NCBI RefSeq assembly: GCF_011319465.1
Contig: NZ_RCMB01000001.1
Location: 1 to 56,218, forward strand
Length of the DNA stretch: 56,218 bases
From: Candidatus Nitrosotalea sp. TS
GTDB taxonomy: Archaea; Thermoproteota; Nitrososphaeria; Nitrososphaerales; Nitrosopumilaceae
Direction: 5' to 3'
Numbering within the stretch: the stretch's first letter is position 1; each line of letters opens with the position of its first letter. Position numbers and translations under genes: made by a program. The notes under the pieces were generated by a model. It worked only from the letters and a program-made list of their open reading frames with translations. It made no database searches and was not told where the DNA came from. Below are positions 2,651 through 29,132 of this stretch, piece after piece.

Positions 2651-3127
2651 TTGAAAGGATCTAACATACAAATCGAAGAACAGTCACTACAGAAAGTGAA
2701 TCTCGATGGGGATAAGCTCCAGAAAGGTCTTGCAAAGTTAGTCCTGGTGGTAGTTGAGCTATTACGACAAATTCTAGAGCGCCAAGCTCAAAGAAGGATA
2801 GATTTAGGAACCTTATCCGAAGAAGAAGTAGAGCGGTTAGGGCTTGCCTTTATGCAGATAAAGGAGAAGGTAGGACAAATATCAGAACAGTTTGAACTAA
2901 AGCCGGATGAGCTTGAGGGTACGTTAAAGGGAGTCCTAAGTTCAAGAGATTCTCAGCTTAAGGGAACATCACTTGTTGATGTGCTTGATAGTTTACTAGT
3001 AAAGGGCGCAGTAATAGGGGGCAGAATAACGGTATCAGTTGCAGACATTGACCTTGTGGCCCTTGATCTTCTTGCAACACTTTCTGCCATTCCAAGCGTT
3101 ACAGATGGAACGAAGATGAAACAATGA
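2651..3127 (+). CDS. gvpK: GvpK-GvpS/J fusion protein
   Basis: A 158-residue protein (TTG start) that joins two gas-vesicle families. Residues about 20-90 are GvpK: LQKGLAKLVLVVVELLRQI, then ERQAQRRIDLGTLSEEEVERLGLAF, a helical protein required for vesicle formation. Residues about 105-150 are a GvpA/S-like module: TSLVDVLDSLLVKGAVIGG followed by ITVSVADIDLVALDLLATL. These are separate genes in the gvp clusters I know. The stop overlaps the next gene's ATG by 4 nt. No homopolymer sits at the junction, so the fusion does not look like a read-through artefact. Confidence 0.88.
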   Translation: MKGSNIQIEEQSLQKVNLDGDKLQKGLAKLVLVVVELLRQILERQAQRRIDLGTLSEEEVERLGLAFMQIKEKVGQISEQFELKPDELEGTLKGVLSSRDSQLKGTSLVDVLDSLLVKGAVIGGRITVSVADIDLVALDLLATLSAIPSVTDGTKMKQ

Positions 3128-3855
3128 TTGATGGCAAGTATCTTTACTGCATTCTAGAGGGTGCACAAGGCGGCAATTTTGGAAATATCGGATTGTTTGG
3201 CAAGAAAACATATGCCGTTTCTTACAAAGACATCAGCGCCGTATTAAGCAACATTCCATTCAAGGAGATAAAACCCGAGATTGAAGCCATAACCTCACAC
3301 CAAAAAATAATAGATGAGGTAAGATCATACGGCACTATTTTGCCAGCAAGATTTGGAACGATATTTAGATCCGATGACGGTGTAAAAAAGATGCTAATTC
3401 AATCATACAAGGATCTAAGATCAAAGATTACAAAATTAAAAGATAAAGACGAGTACGGATTGAAAATAATAATAGACAAGTCAAACCTGAATAATCTTAA
3501 ATTAGCATCTCACAATACTCCCGAGATTAAAAAACTAAAAAAAGAGATGGCTTCAGCTGGAGAAGGAACAGCATATTTTCTCAAGATGAAGATGGATGAG
3601 GCGATTAGAAATCAGACATACAAGAAAATCGAGATGTTAAGCGGACATATACATGAAGATCTTGCCAAGACTGCCAAGGATAGTTGTCTTTTAAAATCAG
3701 ATTTTGATGAAATAGTGTTAAATGCAGCATATTTGGTAAATCGAGACGAATCTAGTCTGTTTCACAAAAAACTAGATCAACTTAAGACAAAATATGAAAC
3801 ACAAGGCTTTACGTTTCACCTGAGCGGACCATGGGCGCCATATTCATTTTGTTGA
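3124..3855 (+). CDS. gvpL: Gas vesicle protein GvpF/GvpL family
   Basis: A 243-residue GvpF/L protein. Hallmarks: the N-terminal GKYLYCILEG strand, the region SHQKIIDEVRSYGTILPARFGTIF, and the C-terminal FHLSGPWAPYSFC, a near-invariant GPWPPYxF-type ending. Family members are minor shell-associated or chaperone-like factors with two alpha/beta domains that bind GvpA. ATG overlaps the preceding stop (ATGA), indicating translational coupling. Only one F/L gene is present here, whereas many clusters have both. Confidence 0.92.
   Translation: MIDGKYLYCILEGAQGGNFGNIGLFGKKTYAVSYKDISAVLSNIPFKEIKPEIEAITSHQKIIDEVRSYGTILPARFGTIFRSDDGVKKMLIQSYKDLRSKITKLKDKDEYGLKIIIDKSNLNNLKLASHNTPEIKKLKKEMASAGEGTAYFLKMKMDEAIRNQTYKKIEMLSGHIHEDLAKTAKDSCLLKSDFDEIVLNAAYLVNRDESSLFHKKLDQLKTKYETQGFTFHLSGPWAPYSFC

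Positions 3856-11719: not shown

Positions 11720-11723
<4 letters not shown>
10650..11723 (-). CDS. Exported pentapeptide-repeat protein
   Basis: Signal peptide MKNIMKFSLILVILLAVSVF, then a thaumarchaeal W-NGQISDSDFLKVLQQLV module (residues about 30-65), then roughly 50 pentapeptide units A(D/N)LxG-type from about residue 95 to the end, e.g. LSGADLSGANLYDANLEGAN. Such repeats fold as a square right-handed beta-helix. Secretion is unusual, since many known members are cytosolic. ATG at 11723 is preferred over 11735 because it gives a clean signal peptide and avoids overlap with the neighbour. Function unknown; a surface or extracellular structural role is an inference. Confidence 0.88.
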
Positions 11724-15028
<3,305 letters not shown>

Positions 15029-15253
15029 GACCACGGTTCTTCCCAAGATACGGCGCATATGAAATAACTCGAGATTCTCATAGTGTTGATTTTCCAACAC
15101 GTGAAACTCTCTCGTAGAGATATGAATACTTTCAATTATGAATCGAATACCTCTGCCAATAATTTAAAAGAGTTGCGTAGGAATCTTCTGTAACTCTTTT
15201 CCATCGAGGTATTTTTTGTTTTTGTGATATTTTTCATATAGGATATTGTATGA

Positions 15254-15808
15254 TCTAGAGGTCTGACAAAAAAACAGTACTATACAAGATTGAGACAGCT
15301 GGTAGACCTGAACCTGGTGGAAAAAATTGAATATACAACAGGAAGAAAAACTCATAGTGAATCGGTTTACACTACGACCCTTTTTGGAAATCTGATATAT
15401 GGAAGATGCATACTTGATGTGCAAGAGATGGTTTCCAACATGAGAAATCCAAAGGCTGCAGAGATATTGCACCGGAGCGCAAGGTTCAGTCCAGAAGAGA
15501 TTGTTCGATTTATGTCAAGATGCATGCAATGATACATGCAGTGATACCATCAGATGGAATTAACAGCTTGCATGTCATGCATGTAACAAGGTCTACAAGC
15601 AGTTATGAGATACACAAAGTCTTGAATGTAAAATACGACAGAGTGGAGAGCATTTAGAAATTGTTAGAGAGAACGGAGAAGAGTATTACAAGGTATCACA
15701 AAAGAAAGGGTGTTGAATGAAATTTATGATTCTATTACAACAGACTCGATGAAAAACTACAGAGGATTGAGATCTAAAATAATAATCAAAACAGCAAAAA
15801 GATCATAG
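15254..15808 (+). pseudogene. Decayed winged-helix regulator
   Basis: No valid start: the frame opens after a stop with GLTKKQYYTRLRQLVDLNLV, the end of a winged-helix domain of a common thaumarchaeal regulator family, then VYTTTLFGNLIYGRCILDVQ and RNPKAAEILHRSARFSPEEI to a stop at 15532. Beyond it, broken frames continue with related-looking pieces (GINSLHVMHVTRSTSSYEIH, EIVRENGEEYYKVSQKKG, VLNEIYDSITTDSMKNYRGL) to 15808. Multiple stops and shifts suggest real decay next to the integrated element rather than one read error. Confidence 0.55.
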
Positions 15809-16139
15809 TCTAAAAACTATATGGTTTTCAAGTAACAGAAAACTAGAGAGAAAGTAAGATGCTGCGCAAGCTACAGAAAGAAAAAAGAAAAGAAAAAAGA
15901 AAATACGTATAATATGGCGGTAACGTGGTTTTTAGTCAAAAACAAGGAAATTTTTACGCATGGGTTATTCGTGGATATCTGATTTCCTTACCTACTTTTG
16001 CCAGTTTCATTGTGTAGTCGTTCTCAAAGCTTTGTGTAGTAACAACATAAACCAAGAAAATCATATGATTTTAGCAGCAAAAAACCATATGATTTTACAA
16101 GACCATTTTTAATTTCTTGTGATTGCATCATAATACATC
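15809..16139 (+). promoter_or_regulatory. Gene-free stretch with twin repeat and promoter of the AbrB-type gene
   Basis: The first 250 nt show no coding frame. CATATGATTTTA occurs at 16062-16073 and 16086-16097 (24-nt period), directly before TTTTTAATTT (about 16106-16115) and TGTGATT, 25-34 nt before the ATG at 16140. The repeat pair is a likely operator. The TTTTTAATTT box recurs in other promoters of the element. Confidence 0.55.
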
Positions 16140-16439
16140 ATGACACAGAAAATTTATGAAAGACATGCAATGCGACTGGGTCATCAAACCAGATATTCAC
16201 TTATGGTTACAATACCAAAAAAGATCTGCAAAGCTTTACAGATAGAAAAAAATACGAGACTCTACTTCAAGCTTGAAGGCTGCAAGTTTGTCGTATCAAG
16301 AGACATCAAGTCTCTTGAGGATGCCATGTGTAATGATAATAATACTGTTGAAACAATTGAATCCACAAAAAAAGAAAATGGAAGCAAAGAAAAAGAGATC
16401 ATTGTGGACGGAATATCCCTTGCTGACCTTCAGTACTAG
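16140..16439 (+). CDS. AbrB/SpoVT-like DNA-binding protein
   Basis: 99 residues. RYSLMVTIPKKICKALQIEK and TRLYFKLEGCKFVVSRD form the swapped-hairpin AbrB-type domain; the C-terminal third is charged and probably flexible (TKKENGSKEKEIIVDG). It converges with the actin-like gene, overlapping its 3' end by 41 nt, so both reading frames are constrained there. Likely a transcription or partition regulator of the element; antitoxin is an alternative but no toxin is adjacent. Confidence 0.82.
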   Translation: MTQKIYERHAMRLGHQTRYSLMVTIPKKICKALQIEKNTRLYFKLEGCKFVVSRDIKSLEDAMCNDNNTVETIESTKKENGSKEKEIIVDGISLADLQY

Positions 16440-17271
16440 ATGATGGCGACGATATCAGCTGACCAAGCTTGTAGAGCCCTGCCGCATTTGAAAATACTGG
16501 GTCCTTTGCTATTCTTAGCCTGTCTGGTACCTTTTGTTGCAGAGACTCGTACAATCCTGCAATGAGCGCGCCTCCGCCTGATACATAGATCTCGTACTGC
16601 CTGTCCAGTCTTGTCTTAAAGACTGCAAGCCTGTTTGCAAGAATTGCAGCCAGTGCATCAATCCTCTTCTTGTCTATCTTATTTTTCTCGTGCTCGATGT
16701 AATCTAGCTCGCCATCATACAGATAGTCGCAGGCCTGTGGAATCGACACTCCGGCAACTGGTTTTAGGTCCTCAAAGAGCACAAGCTCTGTTGTTCCCTG
16801 TCCGATTGATAGTACAATGCCAGTCCTTGCATCCTCGGAAAGTAAGGTGCCTATTGATTGAGGTATCACAAGTACTTTTCGCGGCTTTAAGCTTCGCTCT
16901 ATGATCTTCTCAAGATGGCCTTTCTGCAATGATGCGCCATATGGTAGTCCCATTACAATCAAGAGCGAGCCAAGTTCTCTCTCGCATCCAAGCTCCCTTA
17001 CTGCTTGTTTTATTACAGCTACAAAGGCCTTCTCCTGTACCATCCTGCCTTCAAGTACTGCCCGCACCAGAACCGCATCAGGATATATTGCCATCTTTGC
17101 TGCTTCATACCCTACTGATTCAGCCGTTCGTTCCTTGCTACTCTCCCAGCTGTTCAGCCTCCTGATTCCGCATATGGAAGGAAATGATGCCCGCATGTGT
17201 GCAGAGACACACTTTACAAATCCTGTTCCAGCGTCTATTGCAATTACTCCATTGTTGGTTTCATATACCAT
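16399..17271 (-). CDS. ParM/StbA-like actin-family ATPase
   Basis: 290 residues with actin-fold motifs in order: phosphate-1 VIAIDAGTGFVKCV at the N-terminus, phosphate-2 GIVLSIGQGTTELVLFE near residue 150, adenosine motif EIYVSGGGALIAGLYESL near 230. Size and motifs resemble plasmid segregation actins and archaeal Ta0583-like proteins, not crenactin or MreB. It has its own TATA box (17294-17304) and an inverted repeat over the start codon. Filament-based DNA segregation is inferred from family and the plasmid-like context. Confidence 0.85.
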   Translation of the reverse strand: MVYETNNGVIAIDAGTGFVKCVSAHMRASFPSICGIRRLNSWESSKERTAESVGYEAAKMAIYPDAVLVRAVLEGRMVQEKAFVAVIKQAVRELGCERELGSLLIVMGLPYGASLQKGHLEKIIERSLKPRKVLVIPQSIGTLLSEDARTGIVLSIGQGTTELVLFEDLKPVAGVSIPQACDYLYDGELDYIEHEKNKIDKKRIDALAAILANRLAVFKTRLDRQYEIYVSGGGALIAGLYESLQQKVPDRLRIAKDPVFSNAAGLYKLGQLISSPSSSTEGQQGIFRPQ

Positions 17272-17304
17272 TGTATCTCAATGCAATGGTATCAAAATTA
17301 AAAA
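17265..17304 (-). promoter_or_regulatory. Promoter/operator of the actin-like gene
   Basis: TTTTTTAATTTT on the minus strand at about 17293-17304, 23-33 nt before the ATG at 17271. Inverted repeat ATACCATTG (17265-17273) / CAATGGTAT (17284-17292), perfect 9-nt arms with a 10-nt spacer, covers the start codon and predicted transcription start. Suits repression by an element-encoded DNA-binding protein. Confidence 0.65.
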
Positions 17305-17305
17305 A

Positions 17306-18088
17306 TCAGTCTTGATTGTCAAGCTCGTCCTCGTTGTATCCGTCAGCATTGTTCATCTCATTTTTGCCATAGGTTTGGGGATCGTCAAGCATGTTCTCGC
17401 GGTATGCATCAGGGTCATCAAGCATGTTTTCCATCCGTGCATCATAATCGTATCCGTGTCTTTTACCATACCTGACAAGATCTCTTCTGTAGCGCCATGT
17501 TGCCCGGCTGCCATACCTTTTCTGTAAAAACTGTTTCCTCTTTTTCTTCTTCTCCCTTTCCATCGTTGCTCGAAGCTTTACAAAGTCAGTGTATGATACC
17601 GCAACAAGGTTCATTTGGAATAAGCGGTTCCAGACAAGCTTGTGCACGTGTTTTCTTTCATACCCTATCCTGTCCATGATAACATCATAGTAGGAAGGCC
17701 TGTTGCGCGTATTCCAGTATGCATCGCTTTCCTGTCTTGCAAGATCTTCCTTTTTCTTTGCAAGCTTCTTCTGGTAGAGCTTTTTCATGTCCTGATACCT
17801 TTGGAACTTTATCACACAGGCCTGCGGTTGTTTGCCCTCTACTGGCACAAAATCATCGTCTTTGTATATTGTACCATGCACATATTCGTCCATGTCATAA
17901 TCAAGCCCTATTACAAGCTCGGTCCCAGTTCCCCATCCGTACTTGTAGCACACCTTCTTTGGTATGATTACATATCTGCTTGTCCTGCCGCTCCTTTGTA
18001 TGGTTGTTGTAATTTTCTTGTCGTGTATAGAGTTTGGCTGCAGCTCGCTGCTCCATATACTGAGCAGAAAACATCTCGAGCCTTCCAT
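17306..18088 (-). CDS. AbrB-type DNA-binding protein with basic coiled coil and acidic repeat tail
   Basis: From ATG 18088 (260 residues): AbrB-like domain TTTIQRSGRTSRYVIIPKKV and GTGTELVIGLDYD at residues about 25-65; a Lys-rich helical region (KKLYQKKLAKKKEDLARQ); a basic segment KRYGSRATWRYRRDLVRYGK; then near-repeats ENMLDDPDAYR / ENMLDDPQTYGKNEMNNADG and DELDNQD. The start at 18088 is chosen because it directly follows the stop of the small gene at 18093; the longer 18148 frame would overlap it. Immediately precedes the actin-like gene, the place of a ParR-like adaptor in plasmid par loci; that role is inference. Confidence 0.75.
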   Translation of the reverse strand: MEGSRCFLLSIWSSELQPNSIHDKKITTTIQRSGRTSRYVIIPKKVCYKYGWGTGTELVIGLDYDMDEYVHGTIYKDDDFVPVEGKQPQACVIKFQRYQDMKKLYQKKLAKKKEDLARQESDAYWNTRNRPSYYDVIMDRIGYERKHVHKLVWNRLFQMNLVAVSYTDFVKLRATMEREKKKKRKQFLQKRYGSRATWRYRRDLVRYGKRHGYDYDARMENMLDDPDAYRENMLDDPQTYGKNEMNNADGYNEDELDNQD

Positions 18089-18092
18089 GTTA

Positions 18093-18251
18093 TCAGTAAA
18101 AGTAACGAAACCTTGCAAAGTTCTCAAGCCTTTTTGATATCTCGTCATTATGCGTCTCTACCTTTTGTTGTAGCTTTTTTGGAAAGGATATGATAAACGA
18201 GCTCTTGCGTGTACTCTTTTTTGTCTTCTTTATCTTCCTGATAAAATACAT
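18093..18251 (-). CDS. Small basic protein, first gene of the segregation-like operon
   Basis: 52 residues: MYFIRKIKKTKKSTRKSS, FIISFPKKLQQKVETHNDEI, SKRLENFARFRYFY. The FIISFPKKL-x-KVE pattern resembles a short ribbon-helix-helix entry (strand then helices). The stop TGA is followed after four bases by the ATG of the AbrB-type gene. A TTTTTAATTTC box lies about 30 nt upstream. Too short for certainty, but context supports it. Confidence 0.6.
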   Translation of the reverse strand: MYFIRKIKKTKKSTRKSSFIISFPKKLQQKVETHNDEISKRLENFARFRYFY

Positions 18252-18256
18252 TATAT

Positions 18257-18289
18257 CAATCTGGAAACAATCTGCCAGAAATTAAAAAG
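18257..18289 (-). promoter_or_regulatory. Promoter of the segregation-like operon with tandem repeat
   Basis: CAATCTG at 18257-18263 and 18268-18274 (plus-strand reading), a perfect 7-nt direct repeat with a 4-nt gap, sits between the ATG at 18251 and a minus-strand TTTTTAATTTCT box at 18278-18289. Position downstream of the TATA suggests an operator. Confidence 0.5.
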
Positions 18290-18394
18290 AGAAAAAGGAT
18301 CAGTTTTGTAATTTTATTGATCGATTCCTAACACACGTCTCGTTTTTGTTTGGTTTATCCCTACTTTTATATCCTACCAGAGTCATACTAGAGT

Positions 18395-18622
18395 ATGGAA
18401 AAAATATCCGTCTCCATCTCGCCCGAGCTGCATTCTGCGCTGATACGGGCCTCACTTGACAGCGGTACAAGCGTGTCACGTCAGATAGAGACATACCTCA
18501 AGGAGCATCCTGTAATAATGAGATACATCAACGAGATAAGGTCCGAGCCAGACGCAGGAGTCTATGCAGCAAATCCCAAGCGCCTCAAAGATTCTAAGAA
18601 GAGCCTAGCCGTTTCCTCATAG
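18395..18622 (+). CDS. Ribbon-helix-helix (CopG-like) protein
   Basis: 75 residues. KISVSISPELHSALIRASLD gives the beta-strand and first helix, GTSVSRQIETYLKEHP the second helix: a classic RHH fold. A TTTTATAT box at 18365-18372 lies 23-30 nt before the ATG (leaderless-type). It is divergent from the segregation-like operon, so it could regulate it; plasmid copy or partition repressors are often RHH proteins. 3' end overlaps the acetyltransferase gene by 29 nt. Confidence 0.87.
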   Translation: MEKISVSISPELHSALIRASLDSGTSVSRQIETYLKEHPVIMRYINEIRSEPDAGVYAANPKRLKDSKKSLAVSS

Positions 18623-19796: not shown

Positions 19797-20795
19797 ATGA
19801 CATTCTTTGATCCTGATACCATCTGCCCGGGCTGTGGCATTGACAAGATGATAGAAGATCCTGCAAACAGGGAACTTGGGTGCAGAAGATGCGGTCTTGT
19901 CCTGCCCCTTACAGAGACAGAACCAGTCCATGCGAGTGAGAATAAACCACTGAATGTCACGGTATACCGCCTAGGCTCTGACAGAAGATCTACCTTTTCA
20001 AGTGTGGATTATGCTAAAAATAGGATAGATAGCCGTGTCAGGTCAGATCTTCTTGTTGCCTCAAAGTACGACAGAGAACAGGCAGAGCATGAACAAGCCG
20101 CAGTATCGCACATAACCGAGCTTTATGATACCGTTACATATCCCACATATGACGACGGTCTGAAAAAGGGTGATCTACAGATTCTCAGGAGACGTGCCAA
20201 AAACATGACAGAAGCTACAGGGCAAAGACAGGCAGAACTTGATTTACTGAAGATAATTCGCAGGTTTCTAAGAGTCAAGCTTGCCAAGTATCCAGAACTG
20301 AAAAAATATTTCAAGCTTGACCTGTTGCACGTAAAGATACGCCATAGGAGAGAAGGGCCACAAAACATCTCTGGGCGCGGTAACCAGATAGGAAAAAACA
20401 GAAAGGAAGGAAGAATCGGGCATTGCAATCTCTGTAGGGTCGAGATTCCAAATTATAAGGCAAAAAGGCATCATAGAGAATACCACAGCAGCGTCCCCTA
20501 CCACCAGTATATTGACAAAAGAAAACAGTACGTGAGGCGGTCTGCAAGACTTGAAGATGCAATAGTTGACTGTTCTGCTGCAAAAGGGGAGGAATTAGAG
20601 AGTCAGGAGAGGGGCCCATGCATCCACTGTGATATACCTAATGCGATAATCAAGAGATATCCACGAATCGAGGTTGCAAAAAAAGAGAGAATAGATATCG
20701 TGTCACGAATTGTAGCAAGACATAAAGACAATTGTACCGGAAGATGGAGGGCATGCATCTTACAGCAACGCAAGATAGGCCAAAAGAAAGTCTAG
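19797..20795 (+). CDS. TFIIB-ribbon protein with additional zinc fingers, no cyclin folds
   Basis: 332 residues. Residues about 9-40 form a TFIIB-type zinc ribbon: CPGCGIDKMIEDP then LGCRRCGLVLPLTE. Where TFB would continue with the B-reader and two cyclin repeats, this protein has a helical basic region, a C2H2-like finger (HCNLCRVEIPNYKAKRHHRE, near residue 215) and a further cluster CIHCDIPNAII plus distal H-C (ARHKDNC). It may bind polymerase or promoter DNA as a TFB mimic, or be a replication/regulatory protein of the element. Not a family I recognise as a whole. Confidence 0.8.
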   Translation: MTFFDPDTICPGCGIDKMIEDPANRELGCRRCGLVLPLTETEPVHASENKPLNVTVYRLGSDRRSTFSSVDYAKNRIDSRVRSDLLVASKYDREQAEHEQAAVSHITELYDTVTYPTYDDGLKKGDLQILRRRAKNMTEATGQRQAELDLLKIIRRFLRVKLAKYPELKKYFKLDLLHVKIRHRREGPQNISGRGNQIGKNRKEGRIGHCNLCRVEIPNYKAKRHHREYHSSVPYHQYIDKRKQYVRRSARLEDAIVDCSAAKGEELESQERGPCIHCDIPNAIIKRYPRIEVAKKERIDIVSRIVARHKDNCTGRWRACILQQRKIGQKKV

Positions 20796-21009: not shown

Positions 21010-21126
21010 ATGAGCGAAGAGACAATAACAATTCCAAGAGACATTATCATTCAGCTCAAATCTGAAAACGAGAAGATGCTACAATGCCTCTTAAAACTTG
21101 AGAAAACTCTGAGGGAGAAAAGCTAG
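21010..21126 (+). CDS. Small 38-residue protein beside the integrase
   Basis: MSEETITIPRDIIIQLKSEN followed by a leucine-rich helix EKMLQCLLKLEKTLREKS. The TITIPRDIIIQLK strand-helix entry resembles a minimal RHH or AbrB-like start. Good promoter (TTTTAATTTT, TGTGATACCAT) directly upstream; its stop overlaps the convergent integrase stop region by 4 nt. May regulate integrase or excision, by analogy with small excisionase-like genes; inference only. Confidence 0.6.
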   Translation: MSEETITIPRDIIIQLKSENEKMLQCLLKLEKTLREKS

Positions 21127-22367
21127 TTTATTTCTTTGAGTAGTTCATCAAGCTTCCCTTGTTGCTCCAATATGGCTTTTTGTAGTTCCGTAATTGTTAA
21201 GCTAAAATTCTTTTCAATCCTCCTGCTTTTATTCAGCTTTTTTACCTCCCGTTCTTGGGCAAGATCCTTTGATAATATAACACCGCATTTTATACAGTGA
21301 GATTTGTCTGCAGAATTTCGCTCTTTACAGCTTGAACATATCTTTGAAAATAGAATTGAATTAGAGTCATCCTCTTTTTTAAGACCATAAAGTTTCAGAA
21401 TGGCGTCTTCTTGATCTGAACTTGCCAGATGTTCGTATCTTGACAGCATATGACTTGAGTGGCTCCAGTTACCGTAGAGTTTTGCCACATTTCCTAGCCG
21501 CTTAGAGTAATAGGTCAATGAAGAATGTCTGAAAAGATAAGGCCAGATTCGTTTTTTGATTCCAGCAATTTTTCTAGATTTTGCAATCAGATTATAGAAT
21601 TGAAGATATGTTATGACACCAGCCTCGTTGTCATGAAACCAGAGATAAGCATCTGGTTCATCGCTTTTGGGGTGTTCTGCAATCCATTCTTTCAGTGTAA
21701 CAAATGAAGCAACTAGTGCCAGCGACTTGGGTCCTGTTTTTCCCGTTGTGTGGACCCTAACAAAATCTGTGTTGAATGTAACTCCATCCATTTTTATCAC
21801 AAGCAGCTCACCTGGCCTATAGGAACCTTCAAAGAGACAAAATAGCATTGCAATATTTCTTTTAACATACCTGCCGCCGATTTTTTTCACAGCTTGGATG
21901 AGATTTAGAATTTCTTCATCGGTAAGAAGATCTTTGGCTTGTATAGTCTCGTACTTGTTATGAAATGATCCTGGAGAAATCCAAGATACATTCGGATCAT
22001 AATCTCGGTCTTTTGATTTGTCAGCAATTTCATCGTGTTTTGCGTAATGATATAATCGCTTCAAAGCTGTGAGAGTGTCTTTCTTGGTTGAATTTTCATA
22101 ATCTGCATCGGCTATTGTTTTGTGTATTGCTTCAATTTCTTTCTTGGTCCATTCGGATATGTTCTTGTCATCTCTGATCTGCAATATTCGCTGGCAGCAC
22201 TCAGCATAGTTAGCTATTCTTCCATGGGACTTGTTTTCAAGCCTTAGCCGATCTAAAAAACCACACACGACCTTAGCATTTTCTGGTCTGAATCTTTTCC
22301 AAAACCTGGTTCTGGCTTGTTCAAGCCTATACTTTGTATTATGAATATCTAGTGTTGTTTTTGTCAT
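21123..22367 (-). CDS. Tyrosine recombinase/integrase with C-terminal zinc ribbon
   Basis: 414 residues. SAM-like core-binding domain 1-140; catalytic R184 (GSYRPGELL), K210 (TTGKTG), R280 (YLFRHSSLT), H303 (NWSHSS) and Y311 (MLSRYEHL). The first histidine of the HxxR box is tyrosine here. After the catalytic domain comes a zinc ribbon C344-C347/C358-C361 and a coiled coil, as in some archaeal integrases. It lies between tRNA-Ser and the element cargo, as for elements that insert at tRNA 3' ends. Gene is intact, unlike SSV-type integrases split on integration. Confidence 0.93.
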   Translation of the reverse strand: MTKTTLDIHNTKYRLEQARTRFWKRFRPENAKVVCGFLDRLRLENKSHGRIANYAECCQRILQIRDDKNISEWTKKEIEAIHKTIADADYENSTKKDTLTALKRLYHYAKHDEIADKSKDRDYDPNVSWISPGSFHNKYETIQAKDLLTDEEILNLIQAVKKIGGRYVKRNIAMLFCLFEGSYRPGELLVIKMDGVTFNTDFVRVHTTGKTGPKSLALVASFVTLKEWIAEHPKSDEPDAYLWFHDNEAGVITYLQFYNLIAKSRKIAGIKKRIWPYLFRHSSLTYYSKRLGNVAKLYGNWSHSSHMLSRYEHLASSDQEDAILKLYGLKKEDDSNSILFSKICSSCKERNSADKSHCIKCGVILSKDLAQEREVKKLNKSRRIEKNFSLTITELQKAILEQQGKLDELLKEIN

Positions 22368-22472
22368 AATACCAACTCAAGGCAACAAAGAAAATTAAAA
22401 AAAGAACACAAGTATTGTGACCAAAATTTACGAAGAATTTGTTCATTGTGGGGTTTCATAGTAGAGTATAGC

Positions 22473-22555
22473 GCAGAGAGAGGGATTTGAACCCCCGGGT
22501 GCTTGCGCACATAGGCTCTCAAGGCCCACGCCATGCCGGGCTAGGCGACCTCTGC
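22473..22555 (-). tRNA. tRNA-Ser (anticodon UGA)
   Basis: On the minus strand the acceptor starts GCAGAGG and closes with TCTCTGC; the anticodon loop CTTGAGA gives anticodon TGA; a long variable arm (TGTGC-GCAA-GCAC) is typical of tRNA-Ser; the T loop reads TTCAAAT. No CCA encoded, no intron. Probable integration target of the neighbouring element. Confidence 0.93.
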
Positions 22556-28928: not shown

Positions 28929-29132
28929 TTACTTTTTGACCCTTATTCCGCCTTTGACGTATTTGTTTGTCCACTTGAGTCTTCTAGGATCACGCTTGAG
29001 TACAAGCATGTTCTTTTTGCATTTAGAAGAACAGAACCAAAATACTGTGCCGTCATTTTTTACAAGCATTGTACCAGATCCCTTTGCTACAGGCCTATTG
29101 CAAAAACTGCATGGTTTTACTAGAACGCTCAA
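28929..29132 (-). CDS. rpl24e: Ribosomal protein eL24
   Basis: 67 residues, TTG start. [45 protein letters not shown]: the TRASH-type zinc site C-x2-C ... C-x3-C of eL24. Large-subunit protein. One base separates its stop from ndk. Confidence 0.96.

Follow-up and report, generated by a model that had tools for sequence, protein, structure and literature searches.

What does an actin-like ATPase gene do in the integrase-linked DNA of an ammonia-oxidising archaeon, and with which proteins and DNA sites would its product work? We address this question for a stretch of 56,218 nucleotides (nt) at the start of contig NZ_RCMB01000001.1 of Candidatus Nitrosotalea sp. TS (this whole stretch is referred to here as the window), part of a draft assembly that is 71% complete and totals 1.54 Mb over 24 contigs. 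A first-pass annotation of this DNA had described a 52-residue basic protein, an AbrB-domain protein and a ParM-like actin as a trio that might segregate DNA. We find instead a cassette composed of an actin-like gene, an AbrB-type partner gene, a convergent small AbrB gene and a noncoding region that contains palindromes. This cassette pairs two AbrB-type proteins with an actin in the mobile DNA of ammonia-oxidising archaea and looks like a segregation system; we lean, by a modest degree, toward viewing it as the type II-like, actin-driven partition (segregation) cassette of a mobile element integrated at a transfer RNA (tRNA) gene. The earlier idea is supported in part: the actin and its AbrB-type partner co-occur, both genes look constrained and an integrase is found near 11 of 12 cassettes, but the third gene and the likely binding site are not those originally proposed.

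Homologues of the partner occur at 12 places in six genomes, and at all 12 the partner gene is directly upstream of the actin-like gene, a count that includes contig-end stumps of the actin (L053 and L054) and one frame-broken actin (L052). The actins beside the partner are of 62 to 78% identity. The small AbrB gene is present at nine of the nine loci for which the contig reaches that far (the window, L044 to L049, L052 and L129, the last on a contig that starts inside an actin gene), while the contigs of L050, L051, L053 and L054 end within the actin gene. This convergent gene, and not the 52-residue open reading frame (ORF), is thus the third member that accompanies the actin and the AbrB-type partner. 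A search of 250 genomes of the archaeal family returns the partner in seven, one of which (G227, 51 residues, expectation value (E) of 0.0096) is probably a chance match; the remaining six all belong to the window's genus, which contributes 37 genomes to this set. An order-level sample of 400 genomes yields the partner in six, one of them weak (G299). Relatives of the actin are more widespread, with 30 of the 250 family genomes harboring one (own genome included, E of 0.01), and a profile search of 400 genomes of the class, a set that overlaps the 250, again finds them in 30, all in the same family. The actin family is confined to one archaeal family in the searches made. The median ratio of nonsynonymous to synonymous substitution rates (dN/dS) is 0.12 for the actin (seven intact copies), 0.16 for the partner (nine intact copies) and 0.26 for the small AbrB protein (seven intact copies), values obtained with broken and cut copies, the L053 partner and the L046 small AbrB gene left out, with synonymous sites near saturation and with 3 of 78 pairs lacking a finite dS. 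The dN values of actin and partner are weakly correlated (r of 0.43, 15 pairs).

The actin-like gene (16402 to 17271, minus strand) encodes a predicted ATPase of 290 residues, and its assignment to the actin superfamily, made in the first-pass annotation, is borne out by profile matches of several kinds. The window protein matches the Pfam family MreB_Mbl at 7.5e-8, above the cut-off, with ALP_N just under its cut-off; PHROG 691, annotated as "partition protein," matches residues 9 to 272 at 8.2e-20; and a profile search of the PDB finds solved MreB, ParM and actin chains. The NCBIfam ParM model returns 1.4e-8, a score far under its own cut-off. Across the family, MreB_Mbl matches 26 of 29 members and ALP_N matches 28, with Volactin and Salactin matching four and three of the 29, respectively (E up to 0.01). 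An AlphaFold2 model of the actin is weak (mean predicted local distance difference test score (pLDDT) of 57.8), and MreB proteins make up most of its best Foldseek matches, at template modelling (TM) scores of about 0.5 or less; beyond "actin," such poor models support no claim on the fold.

The window actin contains the sequences IDAGTGFVK, LSIGQGTTE and SGGGALIAGL, which we take to be the phosphate-1, phosphate-2 and adenosine-type motifs, respectively. The phosphate-2 aspartate of the actin fold is catalytic. This residue, the Asp of DIGGGTTE in MreB, aligns with a replaced position in all 29 aligned members of the family, with Ser in 25 (the window copy included), Asn in three and His in one. 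A tree built from 29 of the family's actins includes six with an AbrB-type partner, which form one clade (support 100/99); the sister of this clade is the actin of locus L059, on a long branch (99/97). L059 harbors no partner homologue upstream of the actin and has two convergent AbrB-like genes preceded by two palindromic repeats.

The larger part of the AbrB-type partner is a 280-residue ORF (17309 to 18148, minus strand) that comprises a second AbrB-like segment, a basic and helical central part and a tail of acidic repeats. The first AbrB-like segment is specified by 18096 to 18251 (minus strand), which in the window is out of frame with the rest. This is the 52-residue ORF described earlier as a basic protein with a gene of its own, an interpretation that we reject, since its homologue is in frame with the partner at 10 of the 11 other loci, where the two form one continuous ORF of 302 to 317 residues; the L051 copy is broken on its own account. 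A frame change near 18096 to 18105 splits the gene in the window. Otherwise, the earlier description holds: the protein encoded directly upstream of the actin has AbrB-like segments and ends in acidic repeats. Both segments match AbrB/MazE (SpoVT) profiles in pairwise comparison: residues 1 to 75 match six AbrB stretches of the host genome with an E of 5.8e-5 over 23 columns (probability 66%), and residues 76 to 135 match the small AbrB family with an E of 3e-6 over 29 columns (probability 88%), each score being a single hhalign profile comparison built from few sequences. Eight controls, consisting of reversed segments and of residues 136 to 200 and 200 to 262, give E values of 0.09 to 0.67. 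Two AbrB segments in one chain could form an internal pseudo-dimer. With regard to the coiled coil of the first-pass annotation, an AlphaFold2 model of the partner from L084 has helices at residues 152 to 181 and 220 to 246, but at a mean pLDDT of 46 it is too poor to reveal the swapped-hairpin fold of AbrB proteins or a pseudo-dimer.

The small AbrB/MazE-type protein of 99 residues is encoded on the opposite strand (16140 to 16436, plus strand), and the 3' end of its gene overlaps the 3' end of the actin gene; neither this gene nor the region from 15813 to 16139 figured in the earlier reading of the window. Its C-terminus is conserved (ISLADLQY in the window), and residues 1 to 60 match the host AbrB proteins at 2e-6 in hhalign. 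PF04014, the MazE antitoxin family, matches eight of eight members (E up to 1; best 1.1e-5), with the window protein scoring 18 bits, under the cut-off of 24.7. This match to an antitoxin family raises the alternative that the cassette is a toxin-antitoxin-like pair in which the small protein would be a MazE-type antitoxin and the larger protein a toxin or decoy. We consider this highly improbable, given that the conserved linkage is with the actin, that no toxin family exceeds its Pfam cut-off and that NCBIfam gives no match to the partner or to the small AbrB protein (PADLOC was not part of these searches).

Adjacent to the small AbrB gene lies a conserved noncoding region (15813 to 16139) that we regard as a candidate centromere, or origin. 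In an alignment of six loci, from which L044 and L045 were left out, similarity starts abruptly at about 15812 and extends to the small AbrB gene. The region contains three palindromes, AAAACTATATGGTTTT at 15813 to 15828, AAAATCATATGATTTT at 16057 to 16072 and AAAACCATATGATTTT at 16081 to 16096, and a conserved block, AAAATACGTATAATATGGCGG, at 15900 to 15920 (plus strand). The usual layout is a palindrome, about 60 to 75 nt, the block, about 115 to 140 nt, and two palindromes whose starts are 23 to 24 nt apart; one member of this pair is too altered in L090 and L091 to match the pattern used. In the window, the expectation is 0.14 strand matches, and seven are observed, from the three array palindromes and a single match at 29103. 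G198, G200, G202 and G209 together contain 18 exact copies of the pattern AAAACYMTAKRGTTTT, all 18 within such arrays, and the same pattern read backward does not occur; the pattern was itself derived from these sites, and this count therefore tests confinement and not the motif independently. When two mismatches are allowed, a scan of the window's whole genome returns 17 strand matches against 16 for the control, which is no better, and confinement thus rests on the exact pattern in the four relatives and on the cluster in the window. The block is found at 10 places in 6 of the 250 family genomes (the backward-read control matched once), and 9 of these 10 are linked with a cassette, in the case of G202 via a contig end.

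The first-pass annotation had placed the binding site elsewhere, at an inverted repeat of 9+9 nt over the actin start codon (17265 to 17292). The repeat does exist in the window, where none of 300 shuffles gives one as long, but it is kept in none of the 11 other copies, in which the best arms at the actin start are 2 to 5 nt, a length that 80 or more of 300 shuffles attain in every case. We therefore reject it as a conserved operator; the conserved element is the palindrome array beside the small AbrB gene. A T-rich element at 17294 to 17305 (minus strand), about 25 nt before the actin start and with a similar element in the other copies, is presumably TATA-box-like. An Rfam search of 15500 to 18400 matched no known structured RNA, and a scan for bacterial promoters and terminators gave nothing useful.

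The setting of the cassette is that of a mobile element. A tyrosine integrase (21123 to 22367, minus strand; PF00589, 1.3e-9) is encoded in the same stretch as the cassette here and at 10 of the 11 other loci, counting L087 and L092, for which only the C-terminal end is present at the contig edge, and L091, where it lies about 7 kb away; none is found in L088. Next to the integrase is a tRNA-Ser(TGA) gene (22471 to 22555, minus strand), the likely integration site, and tRNA genes are found in the window and in six of eight loci scanned (all but L090 and L094). In another genus, locus L066 of G237 has this tRNA-Ser(TGA) together with the ferredoxin genes that accompany it in the window (identities of 80 and 86%); next come an integrase of 66% identity, a distantly related actin of the family (36%) and a small basic protein. 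L066 and the window may thus represent an exchange of modules at one element site.

We infer from these features a partition mechanism of the following kind. AbrB-type proteins would bind the palindrome array beside the small AbrB gene, and the array would be the centromere and, probably, an operator as well. The two-segment AbrB protein would be the adaptor, with its N-terminal half gripping DNA and its acidic repeat tail gripping the actin filament, and a filament of the actin-like ATPase would then move apart or position copies of the element after its excision. Arguing for partition are the pairing of actin and partner, the constant presence of the small AbrB gene, the low dN/dS, the PHROG 691 match, the confinement of the array, the segment scores and the integrases, and furthermore the site that L066 shares while harboring another actin module and the convergent AbrB-like genes and palindromic repeats of L059.

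A number of observations weigh against this interpretation. The replacement of the phosphate-2 aspartate in every family member may weaken or slow hydrolysis, or the family may use another catalytic route. The assignment of the partner to AbrB is challenged by weaker crosswise scores (0.0034 for segment 1 with the small AbrB family, 0.0033 for segment 2 with the host AbrB proteins and 0.019 for segment 1 with segment 2), by a weak Pfam AbrB match (3 of 10 members, best 0.0032, under the cut-offs) and by a PDB profile search with the partner that found no AbrB. The small-AbrB profile itself reaches AbrB chains of the PDB only at 0.58 to 0.71, behind unrelated chains at 0.06. The AlphaFold2 models of actin and partner are both of low quality. 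The first-pass annotation had pointed to archaeal plasmids as the place to look for relatives of the cassette; searches with the actin found none in plasmids, phages or viral contigs, and those with the partner found none in plasmids or viral contigs. Moreover, no clear attachment repeat was found, the best candidate being a 12-nt match in L132 with an E of 0.2.

The window's own partner gene is also frame-broken, which bears on whether these are decaying element genes without present function in this strain. Two of the 11 other copies likewise contain a broken gene (the partner in L051 and the actin in L052). Against such decay, the partner gene is intact in 10 of the 11 other copies and dN/dS is low, and the frame break in the window could be an assembly error in a draft genome; we judge decay quite improbable.

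Finally, the array is separable from the genes beside it. An AAA-ATPase gene comes between the array and the small AbrB gene in L085 and also in G202 (L084), there across two contigs, and at these same loci another palindrome pair (ATATTC...GAATAT) is found nearer the small AbrB gene. The array therefore looks like a unit of its own and not merely the promoter of that gene. In G196 (L118/L127), the block and one palindrome lie about 210 to 300 nt from a tRNA-His gene with no actin, perhaps as an element end or a deletion scar. These two arrangements mean that the array may serve another function, for example in replication. It would then be a replication origin or have some other role in the element, with the AbrB proteins acting only as transcription regulators and the actin performing an unrelated job, an explanation that we regard as unlikely: no copy of the two-segment partner is found away from the actin, and the exact palindromes in the four genomes lie within cassette-linked arrays without exception.

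Placing the cassette in the context of known systems, we find the closest likeness in ParMRC (ParCMR, as in plasmid R1), with which it shares an actin-like ATPase, an adjacent gene for a predicted DNA-binding protein and a nearby repeated cis-region. In ParMRC, filaments that depend on nucleotide drive plasmids apart. The ParR adaptors of ParMRC have a ribbon-helix-helix (RHH) fold, and ParMs have a closed beta-barrel domain (PMC12270681). The cassette encodes an actin of the partition type, as judged from PHROG 691, and a palindrome array that is present, confined and a candidate site of the repeat-centromere kind. In contrast to ParMRC, its conserved partner appears from profile matches to be AbrB-type, has two segments and is encoded upstream; a second, convergent AbrB gene is present; the phosphate-2 aspartate is replaced; and the setting is archaeal, integrase-linked DNA. 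No RHH gene is common to the cassette copies. An RHH-like ORF, named by eye, does lie divergent from the partner gene (18395 to 18622, plus strand, 75 residues), but it has no homologue at the other 11 loci and is rejected as a true ParR. Likewise, a larger RHH-like family, also recognised by eye near some arrays, is absent from the window, L090, L091, L093 and L094 and is rejected as well. The most economical reading is an actin-driven partition cassette that would work like ParMRC, with an apparently AbrB-type adaptor instead of an RHH one and a different active site.

The AlpC/AlpA/alpS system of the Corynebacterium prophage CGP3 also combines an actin-like protein, a DNA-binding adaptor and specific sites on integrated DNA (PMC5539076, PMC4446434); its setting is a bacterial prophage, and the likeness is one of parts. 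On this precedent, the actin could be a track that serves to replicate the excised element or to position it inside the cell, as proposed for prophage AlpC/AlpA, and not to segregate it as such. We think this rather unlikely, since the PHROG match is to a partition family and no virus genes are recognised in the ORF lists of L132, L090 and L085, which were inspected by eye and not searched against families. SegAB and the AspA-ParB-ParA system of pNOB8 resemble the cassette as archaeal segregation systems, and SegB binds palindromes upstream of its genes, but the ATPases described there are of the Walker ParA type and not actins (PMC5120986). Thaumarchaeal integrated elements likewise have integrases, with ParB-like genes behind TFIIB genes, and their conjugative class has TFIIB-like and ParB-like genes; the main text that describes them includes no word beginning with actin or AbrB (PMC6563490). 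Salactin and volactin belong to the same superfamily, and their Pfam models match few members of the family described here, as given above. We know of no pairing of salactin or volactin with AbrB genes. A literature search on AbrB with ParM and centromere-binding proteins, covering one collection of papers without preprints, found no such system; one combining AbrB, plasmid partition and centromere listed only papers on toxin-antitoxin systems and on SMC/FtsK; and broader searches gave no actin/AbrB segregation system among the matches listed.

It is tempting to go further and view the cassette as a separate archaeal class of actin-driven segregation, defined by an Asp-less actin, a two-segment AbrB adaptor, a convergent AbrB regulator and a palindrome centromere, and exchangeable at one site with a module in which an unrelated small basic protein accompanies an actin of this family. 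We offer this proposal tentatively and at somewhat less than even confidence. Archaeal segregation systems treated in PMC5120986 use Walker-type ATPases, and ParMRC uses RHH adaptors (PMC12270681); if the partition reading is true, actin-based segregation would have been rebuilt in archaea with a different DNA-binding fold, which would help explain the upkeep of thaumarchaeal mobile elements. Three proteins and a site of about 330 bp would provide compact, testable parts for an actin in ammonia oxidisers.

The small protein of the alternative module recurs elsewhere in the actin family. Among the loci of distant actins (L055 to L083), a small basic protein is encoded right after the actin in at least 13 of 28; two typical examples have no Pfam match, and a third matches an unrelated family at 0.031, under the cut-off. 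Several of these loci harbor, before the actin, ParB-like and winged-helix-like genes or a prepilin-peptidase-like gene, names that were assigned by eye. The ParB-like protein of L060 has no Pfam match, and a weakly TFIIB-like gene at this locus recalls the TFIIB-ParB pairs in the elements of PMC6563490.

Other genes of the carrying element are less regularly distributed. A TFB-like zinc-ribbon protein (19797 to 20795, plus strand) matches PF08271 at 8.3e-6 with 25.7 bits, under the cut-off of 29, and among the 11 other loci has homologues only in L084 and L085. A protein of about 300 residues is encoded between the integrase and the cassette in L086, L090, L093 and L094 and before the cassette in L088, where no integrase is found; these copies have 87 to 95% identity to that in L132. 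By eye, the proteins of L086, L088, L090, L093 and L094 look topoisomerase VI/Toprim-like. A winged-helix-like gene of L132 has a shorter counterpart at 15260 to 15394 of the window, where 46 residues align with part of it at 67% identity.

Two further features of the window lie away from the cassette. The minus strand of 11720 to 15100 encodes a repeat protein of 1126 residues, in which a very long run of glutamines lies close to the C-terminus. Gas vesicle genes occupy 2651 to 3855 on the plus strand, where a GvpK with a C-terminal Gas_vesicle (GvpA-type) segment is followed by GvpL/GvpF, and such genes thus occur here in a relative of ammonia oxidisers.

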